Source: Woeseiaceae bacterium
GTDB taxonomy: Bacteria; Pseudomonadota; Gammaproteobacteria; Steroidobacterales; Woeseiaceae
Assembly: GCA_028227395.1 (NCBI GenBank)
Contig: JAOIZZ010000004.1
Coordinates: forward strand, 62,001-126,000
Reading direction: 5' to 3'
Length of the DNA: 64,000 nt
Shown: positions 26,190 to 46,009 of the stretch, one piece after another
Numbering within the stretch: the stretch's first letter is position 1
Layout of the letters: each line of letters begins with the position of its first letter
The notes under the pieces: generated by a model
Seen by the model: only the letters and a program-made list of their open reading frames with translations
What the model was told of the DNA's origin: nothing
Databases searched by the model: none
Translations under genes and position numbers: made by a program

Positions 26190-26918
26190 TTAAGAAAAAA
26201 TCTCTGTTAAGAACAAACGCATTGAATTCCAGGATCGTTGATCGGATGTCTCGTCATAGAGCATCCCATTATCTGGATCATTGGTGCCAGTTTTCGCAAA
26301 CCCATGCACAGCATCTCCAAAAGTATGCAATTGCCAGTCCGCCGACATTGCCGACATCTCTTTTGCAAAACTTACCACATCCTCTGGCAGCACCGTCGGA
26401 TCCTTCCAGCCATGCAGTACCAAAATTTTTGCATTAATTTTGTTTCCATTAGTATTACTTGGTGAAGATAAATTACCATGTAAGCTCACAGCTCCAAGAA
26501 TATCAGCCCCACATCTTGCCATATCAAGTGACGCTAATCCGCCAAAACAATACCCAATCGTCGCCATTTTGTTGCTATCAACCTGAGCTTGTGCACTCAA
26601 GACATCTAGAGCCAGCAATACTCTCCTTTGTAATAATTCACGATTAATAAGAAAAGGTTTCATTAAAGCTGCATTTTCGGTTCTATTCTTACCTCTAGTG
26701 CCCTTACCATAGATATCGAAAGCAAAACCTACATAGCCTATAGCTGCTAATTCTATGGCTTTTTTACATTCAAACTCTGAACGACCTGCCCATGCATGGC
26801 CAACCAGTATTCCTGGTTTTTTTATTTTCACGGTATCATCCCATGCCATAAAGCCTTCTAAGAGATGATTTCCATCCATATATTCAATATATTTTGTCAG
26901 TATAGTCAATTTATTCAC
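26190..26918 (-). CDS. Dienelactone hydrolase family protein (cytoplasmic)
   Basis: Alpha/beta hydrolase of the dienelactone-hydrolase family. The nucleophile elbow GYCFGG has Cys in place of Ser, with Asp in LHGWKDPT and His in AVHGFAK, the typical Cys-Asp-His triad. No signal peptide. The apparent start is GTG at 26918, with a poor ribosome site, so the start is uncertain. Another family member with a signal peptide lies at 37.7-38.5 kb. The substrate is unknown; many members act on esters or lactones outside chlorocatechol pathways. Confidence 0.85.
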   Translation of the reverse strand: MNKLTILTKYIEYMDGNHLLEGFMAWDDTVKIKKPGILVGHAWAGRSEFECKKAIELAAIGYVGFAFDIYGKGTRGKNRTENAALMKPFLINRELLQRRVLLALDVLSAQAQVDSNKMATIGYCFGGLASLDMARCGADILGAVSLHGNLSSPSNTNGNKINAKILVLHGWKDPTVLPEDVVSFAKEMSAMSADWQLHTFGDAVHGFAKTGTNDPDNGMLYDETSDQRSWNSMRLFLTEIFS

Positions 26919-26941: not shown

Positions 26942-28192
26942 TTAAAATTTTAAATAAATATTATCTCTATTTTTTGGCTTTATTGCAGTAATCTGAACAT
27001 CGCCAATCACACGCTCAATAAATGCCCCTTCGCAGTAACATAAATAATAGTGCCACATTCTAATGAATTGATCTGTGTAGCCCATGGTATTTATACTCTC
27101 TATATTTTCATACATACGATCACGCCAACACTTCAATGTTGTAGCATAATGAGGACCAATATCCTCAATATTAATCATTCTTAAATTAGTATTTTCAGTA
27201 ATAACATCTGCCATATTGGTAACTGATGGCAAGCATCCGCCAGGAAATATATATTTTTGTATGAAATCAACAGATTTAATTGTTCTTTTGTAATGTTGAT
27301 CAGCAATTGTAATTGCCTGTAGTACCATCAAACCATCTTCTTTAAGCAGAGCCGAACACTTCTTAAAAAAGTCTCTGTAATACTTGTGACCAACTGCCTC
27401 AATCATTTCTATCGATACTAATTTATCATATTGACCTTCAAGATCGCGGTAATCATCCAAGCATAAAGTAATTTTTTCAGAGAGCCCTGCTTGTGCTATT
27501 CTCTTTTTCGCCATCTCAAACTGTTCTTTAGATATTGTCGTTGTTGTTATCTTACAACCATAATTTTGAGCTGCGTAGATTGCAAAACCACCCCACCCAG
27601 AACCAATTTCAACAACATGATCACTTTCTTTTAGTTGTAATTTTTCACAAATACGCTTTAACTTCATGGTTGAGGCTTCCTCTAAAGTACTTTCAGAGTC
27701 CTCGAATAGAGCACATGAATACATCATTTTCTTATCAAGCCAGATTTGAAAAAAATCATTACCAAGATCATAGTGAGCCGCAATATTCTTTCGGCTGCCA
27801 GAATGCGAATTTCTATTAAACCAATGAAGTAACTTCTGAACAGGCTTAACCAGTTTAGCTATGCCGCTCTCAAACCCGTCAAGAACAGAACGATTTTTCA
27901 ATAGTATTCTTATAATCATAGTGAGATCATTAGTTGACCAATAATTCAATATATAAGCCTCAGCTGCTCCAATAGAACCACCAAAAGCAACTTCGGAAAA
28001 AAACTTACCATCTTGTAGATAAATTTCAGCGGTCAACGAAGAGTCATCAGGGCCAAACTGATGTTTTTGTTGATTTTCATAGACCACTAGCTGACCAACA
28101 GTAATATTAGCTAATTTGGTATAAATTAAACGCTTTGCTAATTTATCTAATTTGGATAAATGGAAATTTTTTTTAATAATTTTAGTTTTCAT
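26942..28192 (-). CDS. cfa: Cyclopropane-fatty-acyl-phospholipid synthase family methyltransferase
   Basis: SAM-dependent lipid methyltransferase acting on unsaturated acyl chains in phospholipid. The SAM motif is VEIGSGWGGFA. CFA hallmarks are AAHYDLGNDFF, MMYSCALF (equivalent to the bicarbonate-site Cys of E. coli CFA), and EMIEAVGHKYY. The frame continues upstream to 28270, overlapping the DUF1365 gene, but the ATG at 28192 gives a normal N-terminus and a spaced junction, so I use it. In this locus type the product may be a methylated or cyclopropanated acyl chain. It is the last gene of the lipid operon. Confidence 0.88.
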   Translation of the reverse strand: MKTKIIKKNFHLSKLDKLAKRLIYTKLANITVGQLVVYENQQKHQFGPDDSSLTAEIYLQDGKFFSEVAFGGSIGAAEAYILNYWSTNDLTMIIRILLKNRSVLDGFESGIAKLVKPVQKLLHWFNRNSHSGSRKNIAAHYDLGNDFFQIWLDKKMMYSCALFEDSESTLEEASTMKLKRICEKLQLKESDHVVEIGSGWGGFAIYAAQNYGCKITTTTISKEQFEMAKKRIAQAGLSEKITLCLDDYRDLEGQYDKLVSIEMIEAVGHKYYRDFFKKCSALLKEDGLMVLQAITIADQHYKRTIKSVDFIQKYIFPGGCLPSVTNMADVITENTNLRMINIEDIGPHYATTLKCWRDRMYENIESINTMGYTDQFIRMWHYYLCYCEGAFIERVIGDVQITAIKPKNRDNIYLKF

Positions 28193-28224
28193 TTTATAAG
28201 TCTTTTTTAGGGTTACTCTAGTAT

Positions 28225-28974
28225 TTATGTCTTTGATGGATGGATGTATACAGGGCATTTTTTTAGCCATAATCTAAGTGCTTGCCAGTGAATGCCAAAT
28301 ATTATTTTCAGTGTAATTATTGGATAAACCAAAAGGATGCGAGCTAGGGAAGACGAAGAAATACAATTTTTTTTCATACTTAGGCCAACATTAAAAAATT
28401 TGTCTCCCTCTTTACTGTTACCCATACTGACATTTATTTTTTGTTCTGGCTTTGTAAACGTCCACTCATAATCTACCTCCATAGGCATAAAAGGTGAAAC
28501 ATGCATTTTTTTTATAGGGCGATATTTTTTTATCGAGCTCCCGGTATTATTCAGATTATCATTCAATACATAGCAACACCGCTCACCCCAAGGGGTATTG
28601 GTGACTTCAGCAATAATATATTGCAATTCCTCAAATTCATCGAAGCAATAATAAAAACTAACAGGGTTAAAACAATACCCAAAATAACTCAGGTTAGTCA
28701 GCAAGCGAATTGGTCCTGTAATCGTTGTACCAGTTTCTTTTTTAATGAGTTTACGTATAACAAGATCCAATGATGTTTGACTATCCCCATAATGATCCGC
28801 CCTTCTGTAACGAGCCAAGGAAAATCGAGAGACACCCCAAAACATATAATCATTAAATAAAGTTGGTAATTCTGCTAGATCAAGATAGAGCATAAAGACA
28901 CGATACGAGAAAATATGCCGAATTGGGCTGACTCTTGAATGAATTACAGAGCCTTCATAAATAGCACTCTTCAT
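28225..28974 (-). CDS. DUF1365 family protein
   Basis: A 249-residue DUF1365 protein: the N-terminal MKSAIYEGSVIHSRVSPIRHIFSYRVFMLYLDL and central SYFGYCFNPVSFYYCF blocks are diagnostic. No catalytic function is established. Members almost always lie beside an FAD amine-oxidase-like protein and a CFA-type methyltransferase, as here, which implies a shared acyl-chain modification. The start overlaps the stop of the FAD gene by four bases. Confidence 0.92.
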   Translation of the reverse strand: MKSAIYEGSVIHSRVSPIRHIFSYRVFMLYLDLAELPTLFNDYMFWGVSRFSLARYRRADHYGDSQTSLDLVIRKLIKKETGTTITGPIRLLTNLSYFGYCFNPVSFYYCFDEFEELQYIIAEVTNTPWGERCCYVLNDNLNNTGSSIKKYRPIKKMHVSPFMPMEVDYEWTFTKPEQKINVSMGNSKEGDKFFNVGLSMKKNCISSSSLARILLVYPIITLKIIFGIHWQALRLWLKKCPVYIHPSKT

Positions 28975-30233
28975 CGTAATAACTGCTCTTTGAAATGTGT
29001 TAAGGCATTTTTAGCGCTAACAACCCCATCTTCATGAAAACCATTACGCCAATAAGCTCCACAATAAAAAGTTCGAGGACTAAAGTTTATTTCTTTATGC
29101 CTTGCTTGAGCCTTAATGGTCTCATTATTAAATATTGGATGAGAATAGTTAAACTTACTTATAATGCTCCTAGGCTCAATATTTTCGTTATTATTTAATG
29201 TTACAAAATATTGTGTTTTACTATTAAGATTTTGCAATATATTCATACTATAAGTTACATTGACGCGCTTATTATCTGTATCATTAATTCTGTAATTCCA
29301 TGCAGCCCAAGCTCTTTTGTTAGATGGCATCTGAGATACATCAGTATGCAATATTGCTTCGTTATCCTGATATTTTATCGCTGATAATACATCATGCTCA
29401 CAATCTGAGGGTGCGTTAATCATACTCAATGCTTGATCGCTATGAGTAGCGATGAAAACATAATCAAAATCTTCTGATGCTTTATTTTTTTCCTTAACTG
29501 TAACAAAATCTTTATGCCTTGTAACAGAGTCAATTTTTGCATTTAAGATAATTTTATCTTTGTACCCTGAAGATAATTTTTTAATATATTCTCGAGAGCC
29601 ACCAGGAATAACCATCCATTGTGGACGATTTTTTATCTGCAACAAGCCATGGTTATTAAAAAAATTAAGCAAAAAATTGATTGGCATATCTAATATTTCT
29701 TTTTGCTCAGCAGACCAGATAGAAGCTGCCATTGGAAGCAAATAATTTTCTGAAAATTGAACCGAATATACATTCTCTTTTAAGAAATCTCCTACAGACA
29801 ATGTTTGATCTAATTGTGCTTGGTTATGTTTATTTTTATTAAACCTGAGTATATCTTTTATCATCTTGAGAAAAGAAAAAGAAAATATATTAGACCGTTG
29901 TGTAAAAAGACCATTAAGTGATGATCCATTATATTCAATTTTTTTAAGTTTGTTTGTAACACTAAAACTCATCACACTATCCTGATGAGGCTGATCAATG
30001 TCATTCATTAAAGATATAAAATTTGGATAAGTCTTATCATTGAAAACAATAAACCCTGTATCGATCGCCAAGTCACCATCTTCATCTGAGACATCAATGG
30101 TATTTACATGACCACCAATATAATTATTCGCTTCAAATATTTTTATATCATTTTCTTTATTAAGGTAATAAGCAGCTACATTTCCAGCTACACCAGCACC
30201 AATGATTGCAATCTTATGTTTTTTGCCACTCAT
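28971..30233 (-). CDS. FAD-dependent oxidoreductase, amine-oxidase-like (NAD(P)-binding Rossmann), CFA-locus type
   Basis: Flavoprotein with the dinucleotide motif IAIIGAGVAGNVAAYYL at the N-terminus, an FAD ribose-binding Glu in FEANN, and the second FAD motif near the C-terminus. GGHVNTI and DTGFIVFND are typical of the protein that accompanies CFA and DUF1365. In Rhodobacter-type bacteria such a flavoprotein (UfaD) is reported to desaturate methylated acyl chains on the way to furan fatty acids; equivalence here is inference. It overlaps the DUF1365 gene by 4 nt. Confidence 0.88.
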   Translation of the reverse strand: MSGKKHKIAIIGAGVAGNVAAYYLNKENDIKIFEANNYIGGHVNTIDVSDEDGDLAIDTGFIVFNDKTYPNFISLMNDIDQPHQDSVMSFSVTNKLKKIEYNGSSLNGLFTQRSNIFSFSFLKMIKDILRFNKNKHNQAQLDQTLSVGDFLKENVYSVQFSENYLLPMAASIWSAEQKEILDMPINFLLNFFNNHGLLQIKNRPQWMVIPGGSREYIKKLSSGYKDKIILNAKIDSVTRHKDFVTVKEKNKASEDFDYVFIATHSDQALSMINAPSDCEHDVLSAIKYQDNEAILHTDVSQMPSNKRAWAAWNYRINDTDNKRVNVTYSMNILQNLNSKTQYFVTLNNNENIEPRSIISKFNYSHPIFNNETIKAQARHKEINFSPRTFYCGAYWRNGFHEDGVVSAKNALTHFKEQLLR

Positions 30234-30287
30234 TCTGTTAAACCCAAATCAATCAAGATAATCAAATATTTCAGAAGAAAGCTTTAG

Positions 30288-30827
30288 TTATTCAGAAGAC
30301 CAATCCTGAGGAACAGGCACTAGTTTTGTTGAATCATAACCAACACTTTCGATAAAATTAAATGCGAGCCTTAAGCTATCATCACTCATAAATGGTTTGC
30401 GGGCCATAATCCATACGTAATCACGCTTATTTCTGCCAATAATGGTGTATGAGTAATCTGATGCTACATAAATCACCCTATAATCGGCTTTTATGGGCCA
30501 TATAAACTGCATTCCCCAGATTGCATTAGAGCCATCCTCAGTTATGAAGCCCTTGGGTGAAAATTTTTTTCGCTTACCATCAAATCCACCGGCATTATAT
30601 GTGAATGTAGTTTGTATGGTTCCATCTGGGTTAAGCTTATAATTCTCAATCGCGTTGAATATATTTTTCTCTAGTAGAGTTGGAATGCTTTGTATGACAT
30701 ACCAATCTCCCATGAATTTTTCAACATCGATGTATTTGACAGTCTTTAAGTCATTATTCTGCATACTGCATCCTCCTATTAGAATTAACAGGGCTGATAG
30801 GGCTACTCGTCTTATGGACTCATTCAA
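30288..30827 (-). CDS. blc: Bacterial lipocalin (Blc-like) outer-membrane lipoprotein
   Basis: Lipocalin-fold lipoprotein. The signal ends IGGC (Cys20); GDWYVIQSIP is the lipocalin GxW motif, and IIGRNKRDYVWIMARKP is the strand preceding the last helix. Blc-type lipocalins bind lysophospholipid or fatty acid. The start is TTG at 30827, because the lipobox requires the region before any ATG. It lies between DUF2878 and the FAD protein, consistent with lipid handling during membrane modification. Confidence 0.87.
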   Translation of the reverse strand: MNESIRRVALSALLILIGGCSMQNNDLKTVKYIDVEKFMGDWYVIQSIPTLLEKNIFNAIENYKLNPDGTIQTTFTYNAGGFDGKRKKFSPKGFITEDGSNAIWGMQFIWPIKADYRVIYVASDYSYTIIGRNKRDYVWIMARKPFMSDDSLRLAFNFIESVGYDSTKLVPVPQDWSSE

Positions 30828-30845
30828 TGCTTGATACTCTCTATG

Positions 30846-31373
30846 TTAAAGGGTTTTTATAGTTGATGAATTATTAAACTTATCTGCTAAATATAATAAA
30901 GGTGGAATAATAGCACCCCACCCAAAAGCTAAAGCAATCATTGCTGAATTAAAATCGAGAAAATATATGCCGCCGAGATTATAACCGGCATAGTATGTTA
31001 ATGGTCCACCTATAAAGCCAAATAGTATGGATAAAAATTTATATTTCTTAAGCCACGCCATGGAGACATTCAATGTTGTAGCAAAAGACATCCACATTGC
31101 AATAATCCAATAAGCTGTGAGATTTTCATCTATGTGTCCAGATGGGTAAGATATCCATTCAAAAAAAACAAAAAAACTGTCCAGCATTCCACCTAATAAC
31201 CCTACGAAAAAAATTAAAAATAATTCATTTATAGGGTTCAATGATCTAAATAAATGCAAGGCAATAATCAAAGCGATAATTAAAACGCCAGTCCATGGTG
31301 TATTATTTGCAGCGCTTAGCACAGCTGCAAACCAACCTATCTGAAAACAAACAAAGTTTATAATATTATTCAA
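30846..31373 (-). CDS. DUF2878 membrane protein
   Basis: A 175-residue protein with about five transmembrane helices and the DUF2878 N-terminus NFVCFQIGWFAAVLSAA, with FFEWISYPSG and MWMSFATTLNVSMAWL later. Function unknown; strongly associated with lipocalin/CFA loci. The start is TTG at 31373, separated from the upstream methyltransferase stop by one base; no usable ATG exists for the first 60 residues. Confidence 0.85.
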   Translation of the reverse strand: MNNIINFVCFQIGWFAAVLSAANNTPWTGVLIIALIIALHLFRSLNPINELFLIFFVGLLGGMLDSFFVFFEWISYPSGHIDENLTAYWIIAMWMSFATTLNVSMAWLKKYKFLSILFGFIGGPLTYYAGYNLGGIYFLDFNSAMIALAFGWGAIIPPLLYLADKFNNSSTIKTL

Positions 31374-31374
31374 A

Positions 31375-32433
31375 CTATTCTCTTTTCGCTGATTTACTGA
31401 ATAAATAATGGGCTACATACCACTCTTGGCCATTATTAAAAGCAAATAATTCAGCACAAGACATGAAAAAGATTCGCCATCTTTGCCACCATTTTTGTGA
31501 AAAATCATGACCGTAAACATCAGCAATTATTGGCATTAACTCATTTTTCTTTTGATCCATATTTTTCAACCACGCATTACTCGTATTGGCATAATGTGAT
31601 CCATTCCAACGCCACCTTTTCAGGATAGTTAATGAATCTTGAAAAAACAAAGGCAGATCATCGCTTGGCATAATTCCGCCAGTAAAAAAATAACGAGTCA
31701 TCCAATCATTCACGCCTTTGTCCAAGAATTCATATGGAGATGATTTATGACAAAATATGTGCATAAAAAATAACCCATCTTCTACTAGCCACCCGGATAG
31801 CTTTTTATATAATTTTTGATAATTTTTCATGTGCTCAAACATTTCCAAAGACACAATTCGGTCAAATTTATCTTCGATATCAAAATCATTCATATCAGCT
31901 ACAATGACTCTGACATTAGAAAGATTATTTGTAATAGCCTGATTCACAATAAAATCACGCTGAGTTGATGAATTAGAGACAGATGTAACTGAGCAATTAG
32001 GGTAGTTTTCTGCTATCCATAGTGACAATGAGCCCCAACCGCAGCCAAGATCGAGTATTTTCAATCCATCTCTTATTTCAGCACGTTCACATGATTTTTT
32101 AAGTGCCGCTATTTCAGCAGAATCAAGATTGTTAGTATCGTCATCCCAAAGACAGCAGCTGTATTTATATCTTTCACCAAGAATACGACTGTAAAAATTG
32201 ACAGGAACCTCATAATGTTGATCATTCGCAGAATCAGTATTAACAGCAATTGGAGATCCCAGCATCATTGATACCATTGATGACTGAAGCTCATCTGCCT
32301 TTTCACAGTTTGAGCTACTAATTTCTTTTAATCTCTTTTTTAGTAATAGACGAATCCCAGATCTTACTAAAAAATCTGGAATATAGCCTAGTTCTATAAA
32401 CTTAATGAGAATGTTATTTAGTTTTTTATACAT
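31375..32433 (-). CDS. Second CFA-type SAM methyltransferase (coclaurine N-methyltransferase-like branch)
   Basis: SAM methyltransferase of 352 residues. SAM motif ILDLGCGWGSLSLW, followed by YKYSCCLW (the CFA active-site Cys region) and SLEMFEHMKNYQKLY, where plant coclaurine-type and bacterial relatives have Met-Phe-Glu-His rather than EAVGH. It is therefore paralogous to the CFA at the other end of the operon but from a different branch. GGAAG before the ATG supports the start. It heads the operon, which continues through DUF2878, lipocalin, FAD protein, DUF1365 and CFA. Confidence 0.87.
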   Translation of the reverse strand: MYKKLNNILIKFIELGYIPDFLVRSGIRLLLKKRLKEISSSNCEKADELQSSMVSMMLGSPIAVNTDSANDQHYEVPVNFYSRILGERYKYSCCLWDDDTNNLDSAEIAALKKSCERAEIRDGLKILDLGCGWGSLSLWIAENYPNCSVTSVSNSSTQRDFIVNQAITNNLSNVRVIVADMNDFDIEDKFDRIVSLEMFEHMKNYQKLYKKLSGWLVEDGLFFMHIFCHKSSPYEFLDKGVNDWMTRYFFTGGIMPSDDLPLFFQDSLTILKRWRWNGSHYANTSNAWLKNMDQKKNELMPIIADVYGHDFSQKWWQRWRIFFMSCAELFAFNNGQEWYVAHYLFSKSAKRE

Positions 32434-32548
32434 ATTTATCTTCCATAAGAATAACTATAAAGCAGAAACAATTTTAGCAGGAATGGGCGAGTATGTTTGT
32501 TACAACATCATACACTTTCAACACTGTTTTTATTTAATACAAAAATTT

Positions 32549-32617: not shown

Positions 32618-33820
32618 TTATACTCTTTGCATGTGAGCTATTTTATTTGTCTCATCGATGATATACCTTTGTACATTGCTACCGCCATAAATCGCATTAT
32701 AAGGCTCAATTTTTTCTAAATAACGAATTGAATCAGAGTAATTGCCATCAAAAAAAGCCATAAAACCTCGGGTCAACTCTGTAAGTGTTGATCTAGCATT
32801 ATTATTTTCTGTTTCAATCCACTTTAAATAAGCTTCTCTTTCCTCGGATGAGCCTGTTGCTGCCAACATTGAACGATGCAAATCTACAAATTTAAAGCCA
32901 ATATCGGGGAAGTATTTATCGATGTATTTGTGCATTTCGTTATTCCAAGTATGAGGAATAATTATATCCTCAATAATGCAATACCACAGTAATGAAACGT
33001 TATCAGCTAAGTATTCTAGAGGAGCCACACCGTCTTTATTCGAAATTAATTTTTCAAAGATAGGAAATATCTCATCTTTTTTGTTTAACTTCAAAGATAA
33101 CAAGGCATTATGCCATTCGATATGATGCAACATGTTAGAGCTATCCCTGGAAGACAGCCTCCATTCTTTTATAAATTGACGCCCCTCTTTGTATTTTGAT
33201 GACTCATAATGGATATGAGTCAGAGTATGTGCACAATTACCCGTATTTTTTATATCCCAAGCTATTTGGCCATACGTTGAAGCTTTTTTGATTTCACCAT
33301 TTTCGACAAACATAAAAGCTTGTGTTGTTTTGAACCACCAATCATCGCTAAAAAAAGATGACTCTACTCCCTTAAGAATTTTTAAATTTCTCTCACGCCA
33401 ATACAAAGAACCTGAAAATGCCAGCAGCCCAAATGGACCAACTATTAAAGGAAGTATGATAGTGTCATTTGGATAATCCTGAATATGCTCAAGCGCTGCA
33501 TCCAAGCAAGATGTCTTAGCCTCTATGAGCATAGAGATAATATCGATAGCACTTTGCTCTCGCAAAGAGGACTTATGTTTATGATGCAGTGCTAAATCTA
33601 AATACTGCTTAGCTTTAATTGGAGACCCATATATTGCTAATTGTTTAGCTAATAAGGCATAGGCAAGTGCAAAATCGGGTTCAAAACTTAGGCTTTTGAT
33701 AAAACTCTCTATACCTGAACTATCTAGACCTAGAGATTCATCGAGACCAATTATAAAATAACGATACGCATCTGCATTATCTACCGTAATTCCCAGATCA
33801 TAATTATCTTTTTGCAACAT
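32618..33820 (-). CDS. TTC38-like tetratricopeptide-repeat protein
   Basis: A 400-residue helical repeat protein. Pattern resembling the TTC38 family: FIKSLSFEPDFALAYALLAKQLAIYGS in the N-terminal TPRs, AHTLTHIHYESSKYKEGRQFIKEW and HHIEWHNALLSLKLNKKDEIF in the middle, with His-rich positions typical of that family. No signal or membrane segment. The ATG at 33820 follows GGGAA; a TTG at 33829 is possible. It ends the run of six minus-strand genes; its biochemical role is unknown. Confidence 0.75.
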   Translation of the reverse strand: MLQKDNYDLGITVDNADAYRYFIIGLDESLGLDSSGIESFIKSLSFEPDFALAYALLAKQLAIYGSPIKAKQYLDLALHHKHKSSLREQSAIDIISMLIEAKTSCLDAALEHIQDYPNDTIILPLIVGPFGLLAFSGSLYWRERNLKILKGVESSFFSDDWWFKTTQAFMFVENGEIKKASTYGQIAWDIKNTGNCAHTLTHIHYESSKYKEGRQFIKEWRLSSRDSSNMLHHIEWHNALLSLKLNKKDEIFPIFEKLISNKDGVAPLEYLADNVSLLWYCIIEDIIIPHTWNNEMHKYIDKYFPDIGFKFVDLHRSMLAATGSSEEREAYLKWIETENNNARSTLTELTRGFMAFFDGNYSDSIRYLEKIEPYNAIYGGSNVQRYIIDETNKIAHMQRV

Positions 33821-33865
33821 TTTTCCCAATCGATTTGATAGCTAATCCTAAAATTAATATTATGA

Positions 33866-34519
33866 TTATTTCTTTTTGTTTTGCCTTAAGGTTAGATATT
33901 TTTGTTTTTGCTGGACTACATTCTGTAATTTTCTATTATCAATAAATGTTGGTTGTCCAGATTGCAGTGAAATTAAATATAATGACGCTATCCATTCGAG
34001 TAAAATTGATCTCTGTAATGCTACTTCGAGACTACCCCCAATAGTAACAGCACCATGATTTTGCATTAAAACTGCATTCATGCCTGCTATTTTATCGACT
34101 ACTACAGCTGCTAATTCAGGAGAGCCAAAAGTTTCATAAGGTGCTACTGGTACTGGTCCACCTAAATCAGTTATTTGATAATGAATCGCGGGAAGCTCAT
34201 CAGTTATAGTTGAGACTGCTGTGGCATACAGTGAGTGCGTGTGCACAATTGCTTTGATATCACTTCGATTCTCGTATAGAGAGTAATGAAGGTCTGTTTC
34301 AGATGAGGGCAATAACTCTCCTTCAATAATTTGCTTATTATGATCCATTACTAATATATCAGCTGGCAATAGAGCATTATAACTTGCCCCACTTGGAGTG
34401 ATTAAAAAATGATTATTGATCTTGATACTAACGTTTCCTGAAGTATTGATCACCAAACCTACTTCCACCATTTTTTTCAATACAGTGATGATAAGTTTTC
34501 GTTCAGACCGGTATAGCAT
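33866..34519 (-). CDS. Class II aldolase/adducin-family protein (Ald2/DrdA-like candidate)
   Basis: Zinc aldolase of the fuculose-phosphate type, 217 residues. Catalytic Glu is in LPSSETDLH; zinc ligands are the two His in VHTHSLYA and the His in LMQNHGAVTIG. The fold family covers L-fuculose-1-P aldolase, MtnB dehydratase and the DHAP-shunt aldolase Ald2. Because it lies 14 nt downstream of a nucleoside phosphorylase, itself after an MtnA-type isomerase, the best inference is cleavage of 5-deoxyribulose-1-P (or the methylthio analogue) to DHAP plus an aldehyde. The alternative is an MtnB-like dehydratase. Confidence 0.82.
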   Translation of the reverse strand: MLYRSERKLIITVLKKMVEVGLVINTSGNVSIKINNHFLITPSGASYNALLPADILVMDHNKQIIEGELLPSSETDLHYSLYENRSDIKAIVHTHSLYATAVSTITDELPAIHYQITDLGGPVPVAPYETFGSPELAAVVVDKIAGMNAVLMQNHGAVTIGGSLEVALQRSILLEWIASLYLISLQSGQPTFIDNRKLQNVVQQKQKYLTLRQNKKK

Positions 34520-34533
34520 AATAAATAATCTCT

Positions 34534-35313
34534 TTAGGAAAGCATCAACATGGCTTCTAGCGAGCTTTCTATAGCACTTTCAATTCCTCGATTGCATGCA
34601 CTAGAGTCGGGTTTAACATCACCATCGGAGATATTTTTTACAAAACCATCGATACTAAATATACAGCCCGCTCTAATCTTGTAGAGAGCACCCAACATCA
34701 GAATTGCCGCCGCCTCCATCTCAAAAGCTAATATTCCCGCCGTTTGTGCCAACTGGATATCATTCTCAAGCTTCGGACTGCTGAAAGCATCAGATGTATG
34801 CACCACACCGGTATGCGTTTTAATGTTTTGTTTCTTGGTCGATAGTTTCAGTGCATTGATGACCTTTAGATCTGCAACTGCTGGATAAATTGCTGGTAGA
34901 AACTTCTCCGTAAGACCCTCATCTCTGACTGCGGCGATACCAATAACATTATCTCCTGGTTTAACATCTATATGACAAGAGCCTGCTGTGCCTACCCGAA
35001 TTACATTTCTACATTCATGCTTAGCAAGGTCCTGCATCACCATTGCAGCACTAGGACAACCAATACCGGTAGAAATCACTGAAACTGGAATACCCTTATA
35101 CTCACCTGTGTAAGAGTGGAACTCTCTTTGTACCATCATTAATTTTGCCCCAGTAAGCCACTCGGAAGCGATTTTAGCTGCTCTTCCTGGGTCACCAGGA
35201 ACTAATACGTTAGGTGCTATTTCACCAGGAACACATCGGAGAGCACGATACTGTGAACGCGCCAGATCATTTGCGTCTGGTAAATCTTTAGTTTCTGGCC
35301 ATACTTTTGTCAT
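34534..35313 (-). CDS. Nucleoside phosphorylase, PNP/UDP (NP-I) family
   Basis: NP-I family phosphorylase of 259 residues, closest in pattern to uridine phosphorylase: VLVPGDPGRAAKIA phosphate-binding start, ISTGIGCPSAAM, VGTAGSC, and FEMEAAAILMLG, which carries the ribose-binding Met-Glu pair. It would phosphorolyse a nucleoside to free base and (deoxy)ribose-1-phosphate. Next to an MtnA-like isomerase and a class II aldolase, 5'-deoxyadenosine or methylthioadenosine is a plausible substrate, but Udp-type specificity is also possible. Confidence 0.88.
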   Translation of the reverse strand: MTKVWPETKDLPDANDLARSQYRALRCVPGEIAPNVLVPGDPGRAAKIASEWLTGAKLMMVQREFHSYTGEYKGIPVSVISTGIGCPSAAMVMQDLAKHECRNVIRVGTAGSCHIDVKPGDNVIGIAAVRDEGLTEKFLPAIYPAVADLKVINALKLSTKKQNIKTHTGVVHTSDAFSSPKLENDIQLAQTAGILAFEMEAAAILMLGALYKIRAGCIFSIDGFVKNISDGDVKPDSSACNRGIESAIESSLEAMLMLS

Positions 35314-35338
35314 AAAATTTTACCCAATTGAGATAACC

Positions 35339-36427
35339 TTATATCTGGCTATCTAAAAATACCTTGCTTGTTTTATATGTGCTAATTTTATCAGGCTCGA
35401 ATATACCTCTGTCTGTAATTATAGCGCTAACCAACTCAGGGGGGGTAATGTCAAAGCACGGATATAAGCCTTGGACACCTTCAGGTGCTATTCTATCACC
35501 TTTCATAAATAGCAAATCATCCCCAGATCGTTCTTCAATAACGACACTATCGCCATTGTTATATTCCATATCCGGGCCAGATTGGCGCAATACATAATAT
35601 GGCACATTATTTGAATTTGCTGCTAATGCATATTGGTATGTCCCTACTTTATTCGCAATAGATCCATCCATACAGACAGTATCTGCAGCCGTAATAAAAG
35701 CATTAATTTTTTTTTGCTTCATTAGTGCACCTCCCATTCCATCCGAAATAACGTAGGTATTGAAACCCAATTCAGAAGCGCACCAAGAAGATAACTTTGT
35801 ACCTTGTAAATAAGGTCTTGTCTCACTACAAATAACATTCAACATAATATTATTGTATTTGGCTTCCATCAGAAGATACACATATGATCGATCAGGAAAG
35901 CAATGAGTTAGCAATGTATCACCACTATTGAGTTTTGTAAGAGCAAATTGGGCAGTCTTTCGTGCCTGCACAGCCAAATTAGATGCCACTGTATCCGTGG
36001 TTTTGATTATCTCATCTACCACAGATAAATTATTTTTAATGGCATTTTCTGCTTTAATAATACATAAATCAAGAATTCTAGATAGGGCCAACCCTGTCGG
36101 CCTTGTTTTTTTTAACCTGAGCGCAGCATTGCAAATTTCATCCATGGATGTGATAGAATTTTGAGCTGATAATGCCAAACCATAACCAGCAGCAATAGAA
36201 ATAGAAAAAGCCCCCTGAATAACCATCTCCTCTATTGCTGATGCTACCTCTTCAGTATTATGACAATCAATGTATTCTTGCGAATGGGGTAATTTCCTTC
36301 GATCAAGTATCTCTACAACACCGTCATTCCATATCGCCATGCCTTTACGTTTGATGAGTAATGGGAGTTCAGATTCCTTATAAAAACCATCTAGCCCAAG
36401 AGACTCATCTTTAGATGTCACAATCAT
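35339..36427 (-). CDS. MtnA/eIF2B-alpha-like sugar-1-phosphate isomerase
   Basis: Isomerase of the methylthioribose-1-phosphate isomerase/eIF2B-like family, converting an aldose-1-phosphate to the ketose-1-phosphate. The family Cys is in LLTHCFPD, the Asp in VISDGMGG, and the signature SETRPYLQGTKL is present. The usual GADRI is AADTV here, and the tail is divergent, so a substrate other than methylthioribose-1-P (for example 5-deoxyribose-1-P, as in DrdI) fits. Intergenic gaps to neighbours are 25 and 27 nt. Confidence 0.82.
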   Translation of the reverse strand: MIVTSKDESLGLDGFYKESELPLLIKRKGMAIWNDGVVEILDRRKLPHSQEYIDCHNTEEVASAIEEMVIQGAFSISIAAGYGLALSAQNSITSMDEICNAALRLKKTRPTGLALSRILDLCIIKAENAIKNNLSVVDEIIKTTDTVASNLAVQARKTAQFALTKLNSGDTLLTHCFPDRSYVYLLMEAKYNNIMLNVICSETRPYLQGTKLSSWCASELGFNTYVISDGMGGALMKQKKINAFITAADTVCMDGSIANKVGTYQYALAANSNNVPYYVLRQSGPDMEYNNGDSVVIEERSGDDLLFMKGDRIAPEGVQGLYPCFDITPPELVSAIITDRGIFEPDKISTYKTSKVFLDSQI

Positions 36428-36454: not shown

Positions 36455-37705
36455 TCATCTCTCATGAAGCACTTGCTTTAATGGGTTATCTTTTTTCAAC
36501 AAGACAAGGCCAGTGAAAAGAATATTTAACCCTACATACAGTATAAAAAACTGAGTAGCCAGAAGATTAAGATTCATGAATGGTGAAAGCGTTATCAAAC
36601 ACAAAAGTGTAATCGAGAACACAAAAAAAGATTTAAACGTAAACCATCCATTTTGGATCAAAATTCCAGTAAAGGTCGAGCAAATAACAGTGATAATGGC
36701 ATAAAAAAGAGTATCTATTCTTTGCTGTTGAGCTAGAGTTAACAGAACAACTGCAGAAGCCCCGATTAACATAATCAATTGGAATATTGTAAAATACCTC
36801 ATTGATAGCGTCATGGCTGGATTGTATTTTTTAGGAGTCATAATAGTCGAATCACCAAGAGCTTTAGCTGCAAGATCATCTGGTTTCCAATTAGTTTTTG
36901 CGTACCAGATTTTAAATTTATCAGATGTTTTCTTGGTCTCAAATGTATCTTTTATCATTTGATAAAAAACTTGCACATTTGCCCAGATAGGATTCCAACT
37001 TTTTAGCTCTGACACAGTTCCATAGACTGGCTTGATCGAATCAACTTCTGCAATATAGGTGCCAAAGAACCTATCCCATAGAATAAATACACCGCCATAA
37101 TTTGCATCAATATATTCTTTATTTTTTGCATGATGTACGCCATGATTCATTGGAGTGACAAATATTTTTTCCATCCAACCAAGGTGACCAATATGCCTAG
37201 TATGGACCCAAAATTGATAAACTAAATTAACTCCAGCCACGGAAACAAAAACCTCACCAGGTATACCTATCATGATCATTGGAAGGAAGAAAATCCATTT
37301 CCAGATAAAACCAGTGCTCGTTTGTCTTAATGCTGTTGCCAAATTAAAATCTTCGCCATGATGATGGACAACATGAGTCGCCCAAAGAATCCTTATTTCG
37401 TGATGTAATCGATGCATCCAGTAGTAACAAAGATCATATAAAACAAAAGCTATTAGCCAGGTAATTACTTCATTTTTTGGCATTAAATCAATATTGAATT
37501 GTTCTGCAAAATAAATAAATATGGCGCCTTGAAAGCCCAGATTAAGTATGACTGGAAAACGGCTAATTAAACCGATTGAAATGCTGGTAAATGCATCATT
37601 AATTCGATACGTATTTTTCTTTTTCACTATTCCATAGACAAGCTCAATCAATATCAGTATAAAAAATACTGGAATTGCTAAAAATATTATTATTGATTTA
37701 TCCAT
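36455..37705 (-). CDS. Fatty-acid hydroxylase/sterol desaturase superfamily protein, AGMO-like
   Basis: Integral membrane di-iron oxygenase. Histidine boxes HRLHH, THVVHHHGEDF and NHGVHHAKN match the FA_hydroxylase domain, and RQTSTG and the TPMNHGVHHAKN context resemble alkylglycerol monooxygenase (AGMO/TMEM195), which cleaves ether lipids. About four N-terminal helices precede the boxes; the C-terminal part adds two to three helices after residue 310. It sits between a secreted dienelactone hydrolase (17 nt) and the isomerase gene (27 nt). Substrate uncertain. Confidence 0.87.
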   Translation of the reverse strand: MDKSIIIFLAIPVFFILILIELVYGIVKKKNTYRINDAFTSISIGLISRFPVILNLGFQGAIFIYFAEQFNIDLMPKNEVITWLIAFVLYDLCYYWMHRLHHEIRILWATHVVHHHGEDFNLATALRQTSTGFIWKWIFFLPMIMIGIPGEVFVSVAGVNLVYQFWVHTRHIGHLGWMEKIFVTPMNHGVHHAKNKEYIDANYGGVFILWDRFFGTYIAEVDSIKPVYGTVSELKSWNPIWANVQVFYQMIKDTFETKKTSDKFKIWYAKTNWKPDDLAAKALGDSTIMTPKKYNPAMTLSMRYFTIFQLIMLIGASAVVLLTLAQQQRIDTLFYAIITVICSTFTGILIQNGWFTFKSFFVFSITLLCLITLSPFMNLNLLATQFFILYVGLNILFTGLVLLKKDNPLKQVLHER

Positions 37706-37722
37706 TTAATTATTCACAAAGA

Positions 37723-38526
37723 TTAAGTCGAAAGATTATTATGCAAAAACGTCTTTAGGCGCTTCCATGCATCAATAGCAGGCAAAGTATTTGTTTCTGG
37801 ATCTCGGTCAACATGCAGCCAGAAACCATGATTCACTTCATCATAAATATGAACATCGTTATTAATACCAATGGCATCGAGAGTTTCGACAAATTGTTCT
37901 ACTTCTGCGACTGGTATACCACGATCATTGCGAGCAAATGTTCCATAGAAATCATGCTCAACATGCCTTAGACGTTCAGGGTCATTCACCAATCTTCCAT
38001 AGAAAATTGCAGTTCCCTCATGATCATCACCGCCCATTGCAAAAGATAAAGCGACCCCTCCACCATAGCACCATCCTATAGTTGCCACTTTACCATTACT
38101 ATCATCTCTAGATTTCAGCATTTGAACTGCTGCATTCAAATTATCTATAATAATGCTCGGTTGTGCCAGTGTCTCTTGAACTAAGCGCATATTTTCATTG
38201 CGATTCTGCCCAATTCTTCCACTATACAAATCCACTGCCATCGCCATGTAACCTTCTTTTGCAAACGAATCCGCAGTCTCTTTAACCCTTTTCGACAAAC
38301 CATTCCATTCATGGATTAGTATTACTGAAGGATGGGGCCCTAGACCTTGTGGCATGGAAAGATAACCCTTAGTCAAGGCATCTGATTGATAGTAATTAAT
38401 CATCCTGCCCTGAAGTGGTTCTCCTGCCCCAATGATTGAGGACGGTAAAACATCATTCTTACTTTCATCAGAAAAAGTAGTTTCAACGAAAGTGAACAAA
38501 AATAAAGCTAGGTAAAATATCTTCAT
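37723..38526 (-). CDS. Dienelactone hydrolase family protein with signal peptide
   Basis: Alpha/beta hydrolase with a cleavable signal (MKIFYLALFLFTFVETTFSDE), so periplasmic. Nucleophile elbow GWCYGGG with Cys, and His in EVNHGFWLH; LIHEWNGL follows the family oxyanion pattern. It is the first gene of the six-gene minus-strand run. A Fur-like palindrome lies about 95-120 nt upstream. Substrate unknown. Confidence 0.86.
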   Translation of the reverse strand: MKIFYLALFLFTFVETTFSDESKNDVLPSSIIGAGEPLQGRMINYYQSDALTKGYLSMPQGLGPHPSVILIHEWNGLSKRVKETADSFAKEGYMAMAVDLYSGRIGQNRNENMRLVQETLAQPSIIIDNLNAAVQMLKSRDDSNGKVATIGWCYGGGVALSFAMGGDDHEGTAIFYGRLVNDPERLRHVEHDFYGTFARNDRGIPVAEVEQFVETLDAIGINNDVHIYDEVNHGFWLHVDRDPETNTLPAIDAWKRLKTFLHNNLST

Positions 38527-43395: not shown

Positions 43396-44958
43396 TTATA
43401 ACTTGCCTATTATCGAAATATCACTTCCGTCATGATAACTATCACCAACCCAACCATTTTCATCGTAATCGCTCATACAAGCCTCTGCTAATGCCTCCAT
43501 TTCAGTTAAAGCGCCTGTTCCTTTTGCACTCATGAGAGCTGAGATTCTAATTAACTCATGGTTACCGGCGTAATTCCTTTCATAAAGTTCATGGCGACCA
43601 CCAAATTCGGTTCCAATTGCATCCCATAACAACTTCATGATTTTTATTCGTTCAACGTGCCCCATGCCCTTGGATCCACGAACGTATTTTTCTAAATATT
43701 TATTAATTTCTGGGTTTTTAAAATCTTGGCTACTCGATGGCAGATAGATAAGACCAGAGGCAACAATTTTCTCAATGATGGCTTTTATTTGTGGGTAAGC
43801 TTCAGTTGAAAAAATTCGGTAGGCAGCTGCTGCTTTGGCGCTTGGGAGAACAGCATCACCCACCCAAGGCTCGGGTGCCCCTGCCATTGCATCAGTCAAT
43901 GACCAAAATAGATTACGCCAACCCACAACCTCACCTAACAAAACTTGCACGCCTCGAAAAGATTCTGTTCCGGTGGCTTTCAAAGCTTTACTTAAAAGAC
44001 CTGTGATAAAATCAAGTTTTACGGACATTCTAGTAGCACTCTGAAAAGTGTACCCATTAACAAAACCAGAGCGAGGGTAAAATGCCTTTAACATTTCTAT
44101 ATCGCGATGAACGAAAACATTTTCCCAAGGTATAAAAGCATTATCAAAAATAAAAATAGCATCATTTTCATCAAAACGACTGGATAATGGGTAATCAAAA
44201 GGTGAGCCAGTTGCGGCTGCATTTAACTCATAAGATGGTCGGCAAATTAATTTAATTCCTGGTGTTCGCATATCAGCAATAAACATAATCGCCATTGAGT
44301 CGTCATTAATCTCAGCAGCCATATTTTGACCAAGGAAATTATAATGTGTCAACGCTGATGATGTTGCCACTACTTTTGCACCAGACACATAAATCCCAGC
44401 ATCGGTTTCTTTATCGATAGATATATAAACATCCTTAACATCATCTGCAATTTTATCTCTATCAATTGGAGGATTTACTAATGCATGATTAATAAATGGG
44501 ACAGCTTCCTGGGAGCGTTTGTACCAGCCCTTGGCATTGCCTGAAAATTTTCCATAAAAATCTGAATTTGCACCAAGTGTATTAGTGAAGCTAGCTTTAT
44601 AATCTGGCGTTCTTCCCATCCATCCATAAGTCATCTTTGCCCATTCCGCCATTGCATCGCGTTGCAAAAATAACTCCTTACTATTTTGAGCATATTTAAA
44701 AAATCGGTGCGTATAACCCCCTGAACCGGTATCAGTTTCACACGTCAATATTTCTTTGGTACTGTCTACATGCAATGCATCATACAATTTAGCTATGGAT
44801 TGCACTGAATTTCTAAACGCAGGGTGCGTTGTCACATCTTTGACACGCTCACCGTATATGTATACCTCACGATCATCTTTTAGAGACTCAATATATTCTT
44901 TTCCATTAAACGGACGATTTTTACCTTCTAATATTTTTTCAGGTGCGTCAAAGCTCAA
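43396..44958 (-). CDS. 4-hydroxyphenylacetate 3-monooxygenase (HpaB/PvcC) family oxygenase component
   Basis: Flavin-dependent (FADH2) monooxygenase of 520 residues. HpaB-type features: PFNGKEYIESLKDDREVYIYGE, CETDTGSGG, RDAMAEWAKMTYGWMGRTPDYKA and IPWENVFVHRD. Aromatic hydroxylation of phenols is the family reaction. It requires reduced FAD from a reductase (HpaC), which is not in the window. With the aminomuconate-deaminase-like gene it suggests breakdown of a hydroxylated or amino-aromatic compound. Confidence 0.9.
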   Translation of the reverse strand: MSFDAPEKILEGKNRPFNGKEYIESLKDDREVYIYGERVKDVTTHPAFRNSVQSIAKLYDALHVDSTKEILTCETDTGSGGYTHRFFKYAQNSKELFLQRDAMAEWAKMTYGWMGRTPDYKASFTNTLGANSDFYGKFSGNAKGWYKRSQEAVPFINHALVNPPIDRDKIADDVKDVYISIDKETDAGIYVSGAKVVATSSALTHYNFLGQNMAAEINDDSMAIMFIADMRTPGIKLICRPSYELNAAATGSPFDYPLSSRFDENDAIFIFDNAFIPWENVFVHRDIEMLKAFYPRSGFVNGYTFQSATRMSVKLDFITGLLSKALKATGTESFRGVQVLLGEVVGWRNLFWSLTDAMAGAPEPWVGDAVLPSAKAAAAYRIFSTEAYPQIKAIIEKIVASGLIYLPSSSQDFKNPEINKYLEKYVRGSKGMGHVERIKIMKLLWDAIGTEFGGRHELYERNYAGNHELIRISALMSAKGTGALTEMEALAEACMSDYDENGWVGDSYHDGSDISIIGKL

Positions 44959-45025
44959 GATGCAATCTCCTAAATTACCTAACTGAGTGTATTTCTTTCT
45001 ATATGCTAGAATTTACGTTACTGAT

Positions 45026-45046
45026 ATTTGTAATGGTCTTACAAAT
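45026..45046. promoter_or_regulatory. Perfect inverted repeat in divergent promoter region, probable regulator operator
   Basis: ATTTGTAA and TTACAAAT, perfect 8-bp arms around TGGTC, lie between the divergent monooxygenase and beta-keto-acid cleavage genes, 67 nt from the + gene and 68 nt from the - gene. The TTGT...ACAA shape is common for GntR/FadR-type dimers. No such regulator gene is present in the window. Confidence 0.6.
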
Positions 45047-45112
45047 AGCTTACTAATACAATTATAAACTAGAATACTTGCTGATTATGTCAATATAAAT
45101 ATAAGGTTAATT

Positions 45113-46009
45113 ATGTCACTAAATCCATCAAAAGACGTGTTTATTACCTGTGCTGTAACTGGATCAGGTGCATCACATAATAAATCTTCATTAGTTCCTA
45201 GAAGCCCTAAACAGATCGCCGAAAGTGCAATAGCTGCAGCGAAAGCAGGGGCTGCAATTGTTCATTGTCATGTTAGAGACCCAAAGACAGGTGAACCAGC
45301 GAGAGAACCCGCGTTATACAAAGAACTAACCGATAGGATCCGTGATTCAGAAACCGATGTAATTATAAATCTTACTGCCGGAATGGGTGGTGATATTGTA
45401 TTTGGACCATCAGAATCTCCACTTCCTCTAGCCCAAGATACAGATATGGTGGGTGCAACAGAACGTATGCAACATGTTATAGAGTGCCGACCAGAAATTT
45501 GTACTTTAGATTGCGGTACCATGAATTTCGCTAATGATGTCATGGCGAATACACCTGACATACTCCGCAGTATGGCAAAAATTGCGACTGATCATGACGT
45601 AAGAATTGAAATTGAAGCCTTTGATACGGGCCACCTATGGTTTGCAAAACAATTGGTTGCAGAAAAACTCATTCATCACCCTGTTTTACTGCAGCTTTGT
45701 ATGGGCATCCCTTGGGGCGCGCCTAATGATCTAAATACATTAATGGCTATGGTTAATAATATTCCAGAAGAATGGATATTTTCAGCATTTTCAATTGGTC
45801 AACAACAAATGCCATATGTAGCAGCAGCATTGATTGTAGGCGGGAATATTAGAGTTGGTCTAGAAGACAATATTTATCTAAAAAAAGGAGTACTTGCCAC
45901 AAATGTCCAGCTTGTAGAGAGAGCAGTATCAATAATTAATAATCTTGGCTCAAATACATTAAAACCAAAAGAAGTTCGTGAAAAATTACAATTAAAAAAA
46001 CATGGTTAA
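45113..46009 (+). CDS. Beta-keto acid cleavage enzyme (BKACE, DUF849 family)
   Basis: TIM-barrel, zinc-dependent enzyme that condenses a beta-keto acid with acetyl-CoA to give acetoacetate plus a CoA ester. Zinc ligands are in VHCHVRDPKTG; CTLDCGTMNF and EAFDTGHLWFAK are conserved. NLTAGMGGD resembles the subgroup that cleaves 3-dehydrocarnitine, so carnitine-type catabolism is one possibility. No carnitine dehydrogenase or thioesterase is nearby. AAGG precedes the ATG. Divergent from the monooxygenase across a shared palindrome. Confidence 0.87.
   Translation: MSLNPSKDVFITCAVTGSGASHNKSSLVPRSPKQIAESAIAAAKAGAAIVHCHVRDPKTGEPAREPALYKELTDRIRDSETDVIINLTAGMGGDIVFGPSESPLPLAQDTDMVGATERMQHVIECRPEICTLDCGTMNFANDVMANTPDILRSMAKIATDHDVRIEIEAFDTGHLWFAKQLVAEKLIHHPVLLQLCMGIPWGAPNDLNTLMAMVNNIPEEWIFSAFSIGQQQMPYVAAALIVGGNIRVGLEDNIYLKKGVLATNVQLVERAVSIINNLGSNTLKPKEVREKLQLKKHG

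Follow-up and report, generated by a model that had tools for sequence, protein, structure and literature searches.

A six-gene operon of a Woeseiaceae bacterium predicted to make a dimethyl furan fatty acid

What would a bacterium produce with an operon in which two different methyltransferases of one superfamily flank a flavoprotein? This question is raised by a locus at 26942–32433 of a 64,000-nucleotide stretch of a Woeseiaceae bacterium genome (GCA_028227395.1, contig JAOIZZ010000004.1, positions 62,001 to 126,000), referred to here in its entirety as the window. Its minus strand carries, from 32433 to 26942, six consecutive and co-oriented open reading frames (ORFs) encoding, in 5' to 3' order, a methyltransferase (MT1) of the coclaurine N-methyltransferase (CNMT) branch, a DUF2878 protein, a lipocalin, a flavin adenine dinucleotide (FAD) oxidoreductase, a DUF1365 protein and a methyltransferase of the cyclopropane fatty acid (CFA) type. 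Gene order, homology, clade membership, active-site residues, conservation and co-occurrence lead us to conclude that this operon probably makes a dimethyl furan fatty acid (FuFA) of the 9D5 type in place, on membrane phospholipids.

FuFAs occur in plants, fish and microbes, and in Rhodobacter sphaeroides and Rhodopseudomonas palustris they are formed on phospholipids (PMC7380195). UfaM methylates cis-vaccenate, UfaD (RSP1091) desaturates, the DUF1365 protein UfaO (RSP1090) is required for the furan, whose oxygen comes from O2, and FufM (RPA0924) adds a second methyl (PMC7380195). For this second ring methyl, a proven bacterial enzyme was found only for R. palustris in the literature surveyed, as far as its accessible text goes.

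The six genes are closely packed, with intergenic gaps of 1, 18, 54, −4 and 32 bp, the negative value being the overlap between the ufaD- and ufaO-like genes. These gaps assume that the last gene starts at 28192 (416 aa), most likely its true start judging by the match to a 416-aa orthologue from the same genus; taking the first ATG instead would extend it to 26942–28270. Comparison with the orthologous operon of the same genus gave dN/dS values of 0.07–0.12 for each gene, and all six are under purifying selection. Among 20 loci from relatives (not a random sample, having been chosen from MT1 matches, mostly with a second CMAS match nearby), the order MT1, DUF2878, lipocalin, UfaD, UfaO, UfaM was kept in 16, while MT1, UfaD, UfaO and UfaM were all present in every one. 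Given this recurrent order, the block is not a chance assembly, and the six genes and order proposed in a preliminary description of the locus were borne out by the ORFs, by Pfam and by the relatives.

The last gene (26942–28192; CMAS, 304.7 bits) had been labelled 'CFA', and whether it encodes a cyclopropane synthase bears directly on the product. The encoded enzyme is 39.6% identical over 379 aa to UfaM of R. palustris XCP, and in a 40-row tree it fell, among UfaO-adjacent enzymes, within a single UfaM clade (100/100; 7 rows). On Escherichia coli Cfa numbering, with bicarbonate residues as in PMC3132707, Ala240/Gln266 occurred in 33/33 UfaO-adjacent CFA-like enzymes of the main set, the window's included, and in all four UfaO-adjacent enzymes of a follow-up set of 20 further CMAS loci (part of the non-MT1 CMAS hits among relatives). 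The other 16 enzymes of that set invariably had His266, with His (14), Gln (1) or Ala (1) at position 240, and the four Cfa references had His at both positions, bringing His266 to 20/20 in non-adjacent relatives (16 paralogues and 4 references). Ser139 was found in 22 of the 33 UfaM-like enzymes, that of the window having Cys139; with Gln266, the latter does not display the full bicarbonate site C139/E239/H266/I268/Y317 of cyclopropane fatty acid synthase. Its scores also lay under the cut-offs of the matched CFA equivalog and exception models. UfaM would thus appear to have an altered Cfa-type base site, and the last gene is predicted to encode a cis-vaccenoyl 11-methyltransferase. We rejected a cyclopropane synthase on the basis of the UfaM clade and Ala240/Gln266, and the 'CFA' label did not hold in that sense, with the caveat that cotton GhCPS enzymes carry Q266 and that GhCPS1 and 2 produce cyclopropanes (PMC3132707).

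These cotton enzymes, together with membership of the same superfamily and an actinobacterial flavoprotein–methyltransferase pair that gives 10-methylstearate (PMC5660069, PMC7791843), are what would favour an operon without furan chemistry, in which a distal CFA synthase or 10-methyl enzyme and a reductase flavoprotein, as in BfaAB/TmsAB, yield methyl-branched or cyclopropane products. We regard this as most unlikely in view of the clade, residues and model scores just described, and of the genes immediately upstream, where a DUF1365/ufaO-like gene overlaps the ufaD-like one. The ufaD-like flavoprotein (28971–30233; 420 aa; Amino_oxidase, 51.6 bits, and NAD_binding_8, 47.6 bits) shares 37.7% identity over 419 aa with R. 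palustris XCP UfaD; its closest solved structure by sequence is the amine oxidase LkcE, and the COG2907 label of UfaD-type flavoproteins comes from a table on a relative (PMC10012899). It is predicted to desaturate the methylated acyl chain. The ufaO-like DUF1365 protein (28225–28974; 249 aa; PF07103, 259 bits), 30.5% identical over 239 aa to UfaO of R. palustris XCP, would be the furan-forming oxygenase. Its structural model (predicted local distance difference test, pLDDT, 92.9) gave no Foldseek match at E ≤ 0.001, and when a profile of 40 UfaO rows was run against the sequences of solved structures, nothing emerged at E ≤ 1. The best VIA-align match was 3bdr, a fatty-acid-binding-protein (FABP)-like fold (4.0 Å over 133), with a Z of 7.3, a range that possibly reflects a mere common arrangement, followed by the OlmO spirocyclase (7.3; 3.9 Å over 126) and nitrobindin (7.1); a lipocalin/FABP-like beta-barrel for UfaO may be taken as a lead only.

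What would distinguish a dimethyl from a mono-methyl product is the first gene (31375–32433; 352 aa; CMAS, 144.6 bits), which encodes the S-adenosylmethionine methyltransferase MT1. MT1 is 43.0% identical over 335 aa to a FufM candidate of R. palustris XCP, a strain with three strong CMAS genes: one adjoining its single DUF1365 gene (UfaM), one canonical and one MT1-like. Genomes of the R. palustris family share no rank below phylum with the host, which is therefore not an alphaproteobacterium, consistent with its gammaproteobacterial placement. Because exactly two R. palustris CMAS genes, RPA3082 and RPA0924 (FufM), are named apart from UfaM (PMC7380195), the MT1-like gene of XCP can be equated with fufM by elimination, and a DUF1295 gene lies directly upstream of it, the position expected for RPA0923. 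A 119-row tree, which left out rows below 150 bits and duplicates over the last 150 residues and whose output warned of long branches meeting, placed 80 MT1-type rows, including the XCP candidate, in one group (SH-aLRT, 81), with a plant CNMT pair beside it and separate from the 33 UfaO-adjacent UfaM rows (99). In the 40-row tree, FufM and the plant N-methyltransferases were split from Cfa and UfaM with 100/100 support.

As stated in the preliminary description, MT1 belongs to the CNMT branch: its nearest solved structures are plant coclaurine and pavine N-methyltransferases, and the CNMT family is nearest in both sequence (37.8% identity to CNMT) and structure. The AlphaFold model (pLDDT 91.3) superposed on CNMT (6gkv) with a Z of 46.6 and 1.8 Å over 341 residues, compared with a Z of 30.5 and 3.1 Å over 295 residues for Aquifex aeolicus Cfa (7qos). 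MT1 has the CNMT fold and its E-x-x-E-H motif (E197, E200 and H201, invariant in 23 rows). At the base site, on the same Cfa numbering, His266 and Tyr317 were each present in 80/80 MT1-type rows and Phe268 in 78/80, whereas in the two aligned plant rows (CNMT and PavNMT) position 266 is occupied by Glu and position 317 by Phe or Pro. These residues suggest that His266/Tyr317 of FufM forms a base site that would take the ring proton after C-methylation, and that the plant N-methyltransferases may have lost this Cfa-type site. MT1 is predicted to methylate a mono-methyl furan acyl chain. Elsewhere, two MT1-like copies (G033:C68:8058-9065 and G039:C48:18594-19610) are each interrupted by a single in-frame stop and are probably decayed or misassembled.

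Such kinship with enzymes whose plant members act on amines, and with N-methyltransferases as the closest solved structures, raises the possibility that UfaM, UfaD and UfaO yield a mono-methyl FuFA while MT1 has a different substrate, be it a quinone, an amine or some other lipid. The distribution of the genes bears on this both ways. At E ≤ 1e-10, where other CMAS paralogues are counted too, 50/60 relatives had an MT1 match; an MT1-like gene was found in 33/398 Pseudomonadota genomes at E ≤ 1e-40. DUF1365 was present in 30 of these 33 genomes and in 123 of the 365 remaining ones (Fisher, 8.6e-11, a statistic that ignores kinship). In wide loci around 18 of the 33 MT1 matches (two further stretches came from R. 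palustris XCP), UfaO lay within ~9 kb in 12 and elsewhere in the genome in the other six. The six separated pairs and the three genomes with no DUF1365 match can be cited for a different MT1 substrate. We nevertheless judge it unlikely, given that MT1 and the R. palustris FufM candidate fall in one group, that MT1 strongly co-occurs with DUF1365 and that it keeps the invariant His266 and Tyr317, which the two plant rows lack.

The reading we prefer, a dimethyl FuFA built by all four enzymes, supports the earlier proposal of a furan/methyl fatty-acid locus, in that UfaM, UfaD, UfaO and FufM orthologues stand in one operon, and also that of successive chemistry on one acyl chain, now predicted as two methylations around a desaturation and an oxygenation. 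UfaM (26942–28192) would first methylate C11 of the cis-vaccenoyl chain and move its double bond, UfaD (28971–30233) would desaturate this product to a conjugated methyl-diene, UfaO (28225–28974) would insert one oxygen from O2 with closure of the furan ring, and FufM (31375–32433) would put the second methyl on the ring. The predicted order of reactions therefore differs from that of the genes, the last gene acting first and the first gene last. FabA, required for cis-vaccenate, is present in the host genome (277 bits, above cut-off). The furan lipid would act sacrificially, scavenging singlet oxygen and radicals in the way proposed for R. sphaeroides, with the lipocalin and DUF2878 proteins presumably binding, moving or disposing of furan lipids or their oxidation products. 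We infer each reaction in this host, which acyl chain exactly is modified, and what role the product plays in its physiology.

Several observations weigh against this reading. The identity of the UfaO-like protein to its R. palustris counterpart is only 30.5%. FufM orthology depends on the elimination made in XCP and on clade membership, the CGA009 sequence itself not being its basis. The three MT1-bearing genomes (of 33) that have no DUF1365 match (G094, G424 and G443) all belong to one genus, and their MT1-like enzymes may have another substrate. Gln266 is not sufficient for UfaM activity, given the cotton GhCPS enzymes with Q266 (PMC3132707). Lastly, three co-operonic genes are dispensable in R. 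sphaeroides (PMC7380195), so that operon neighbours need not act in synthesis.

The DUF2878 protein (30846–31373; 175 aa; PF11086, 135.7 bits), whose hydrophobic sequence suggests a membrane location, and the Blc-type lipocalin lipoprotein (30288–30827; 179 aa; PF08212, Lipocalin_2, 124.7 bits) were each encoded in 17 of the 20 relatives' loci. The lipocalin contains a lipobox-like LIGGC and scored 71.4 bits against PRK10477 (Blc), not reaching the cut-off of 267. In relatives with larger genomes, DUF1295 and DUF6134 genes sit between those for DUF2878 and the lipocalin, where the window and four loci of the same genus (L026–L029) have no room for them. We considered a DUF1295 gene elsewhere in the host genome (G000:C1) as the absent operon member and rejected it because it is only ~30% identical to its DUF1295 counterparts in the operons of relatives; outside the Rhodopseudomonas-type ones, these share 37–59% identity with one another.

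How might the operon be controlled? The preliminary description had noted that control may differ from the sigma-E/ChrR type and had proposed a genome search for an extracytoplasmic function (ECF) sigma factor and ChrR. We ran this search on the host genome (1.62 Mb in 50 contigs, 84.6% complete) and found neither, which agrees with that suspicion. The PF04542 profile revealed no ECF-like sigma and three sigma-type matches, whose frames span 565, 307 and 266 aa (the 266-aa one scoring below the cut-off); ChrR was likewise above cut-off in 0/60 relatives, with weak sub-threshold matches in 26/60. Classical sigma-E/ChrR singlet-oxygen control is suggested by the inclusion of FuFA genes in the core sigma-E/ChrR regulon (PMC6852236) and by a genome of another class (G246), where ECF sigma and ChrR-cupin genes lie between ufaDOM and DUF1295–fufM, and at 84.6% completeness the pair could have been lost to assembly gaps. 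With neither gene found in the host and no ChrR above cut-off among the relatives, we hold such control to be very unlikely here, and the operon in the host genus is likely controlled through some other regulator.

Gene neighbours in other genomes, the ECF sigma and ChrR-cupin pair of G246 among them, make light or singlet-oxygen defence the likely role of the operon. A divergent photolyase gene adjoins fufM in four of the 20 relatives' loci (in the upstream-gene listing, L208 was dropped by the overlap filter and L028 had no upstream gene on its contig piece). In G072, the start of fufM is overlapped by a gene (L201:8949-10894) whose product, a MerR regulator, has B12-binding domains, which suggests a B12-based light switch for the operon. 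LitR control was rejected for the host genome, whose sole MerR-family match lies in a frame of 120 aa and leaves no LitR-sized candidate. An imperfect palindrome, GTATGATGTTGTAACAAACATAC (32491–32513, minus strand), lies ~57 bp 5' of the first gene and is, speculatively, a candidate operator; it occurs once in the window and also upstream of the operon in G003 and, in part, in G008.

Other genes of the window, whose GC content is 37%, were noted in passing. On the minus strand 5' of the operon, 32618–33829 encodes a 403-aa protein, tetratricopeptide repeat-like by eye and with no Pfam or NCBIfam match, whose position is kept in the same-genus loci L026, L027 and L029. Beyond it (33866–36427, minus strand), consecutive genes for a PNP_UDP_1 phosphorylase, an MtnA-like isomerase and a class II aldolase likely form a nucleoside-ribose salvage cassette acting through ribose-1-P and ribulose-1-P, the aldolase scoring below the ribulose-1-P aldolase cut-off and the isomerase above that of the PRK05720 subfamily. 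A fatty acid hydroxylase family gene (36455–37705, minus strand; PF04116, 97 bits) lies ~4 kb 5' of the lipid operon and is weakly similar to OlsE (59 bits; cut-off, 475). Two dienelactone-hydrolase-like genes occupy 26190–26918 and 37723–38526, both on the minus strand, and genes of this type also occur 3' of the operon in several relatives' loci, for example L027, L028 and L029. Further away, 43396–46009 includes an HpaB-type hydroxylase gene with one for a beta-keto acid cleavage enzyme close by.

The nearness of FufM to plant alkaloid enzymes has wider implications. An Arabidopsis FufM homologue, AT4G33110/LIME1, has 37.87% identity to FufM, and the names AtUFAMD1, AtUFAO1 and AtFUFM1 are in use (PMC10940516). 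For the 40-row tree, 52% of the 200 bootstrap trees kept FufM together on its own, the bootstrap not having settled, so the plant enzymes may be sister to FufM or nested inside it. Plant CNMT, PavNMT and TNMT could then be repurposed furan-lipid C-methylases, with FufM as ancestor or sister and a His266-to-Glu change accompanying the switch to N-methylation, an idea we rate at slightly less than an even chance. The literature as available to us yielded no link between FufM and coclaurine N-methyltransferase; coclaurine and furan occur together there only in a Papaveraceae alkaloid review, once each. If true, the window operon shows FufM within its native lipid pathway and ties a bacterial photo-protection lipid pathway to plant alkaloid methyltransferases, and small-genome bacteria with FufM would be a hitherto unreported source of dimethyl furan acids. 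A single conserved operon in another proteobacterial class would also provide a testable genetic marker for makers of these acids, and the Ala240/Gln266 signature an aid in telling UfaM-type from cyclopropane enzymes in annotation.

Among known systems, R. palustris, with ufaDOM (RPA2571-2569) and fufM (RPA0924), has all four enzymes in common with the window, and 9D5-FuFA as the product predicted here (PMC7380195); its fufM, however, is separate and adjoins RPA0923, whereas that of the window heads an operon with ufaDOM, the lipocalin and DUF2878 genes. R. sphaeroides (RSP1091-1087 and ufaM, RSP2144) shares the UfaD/UfaO/UfaM chemistry and an aerobic, singlet-oxygen context, but its ufaM is elsewhere in the genome, the product described is 9M5 and its control is by sigma-E/ChrR (PMC7380195). 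The cfa/DUF1365/FAD/SDR/NTF2/DUF2878 cluster of Aeromonas salmonicida has UfaD-, UfaO- and UfaM-type genes and DUF2878 in common with the window, while the accessible part of its description mentions neither a FufM-type gene nor a lipocalin and terms its function unknown (PMC10012899). Light-inducible ufaM regions of Pseudomonas under LitR/PplR likewise have FAD oxidoreductase and ufaM genes, with a photolyase adjacent; in the portion of that report available, FufM is not named and control is by class II LitR (PMC9758184), unlike the host genome with its one short MerR-family frame. The plant coclaurine and pavine N-methyltransferases share their full-length fold with the window FufM-like enzyme (Z 46.6) but N-methylate alkaloids and carry Glu at the position of His266 in FufM-type enzymes. 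In the parts of the furan fatty acid literature available to us, we found no account of fufM co-operonic with ufaDOM. Thus, the chemistry of the pathway is known, while its layout in one operon with fufM, lipocalin and DUF2878 genes seems to be a new arrangement.

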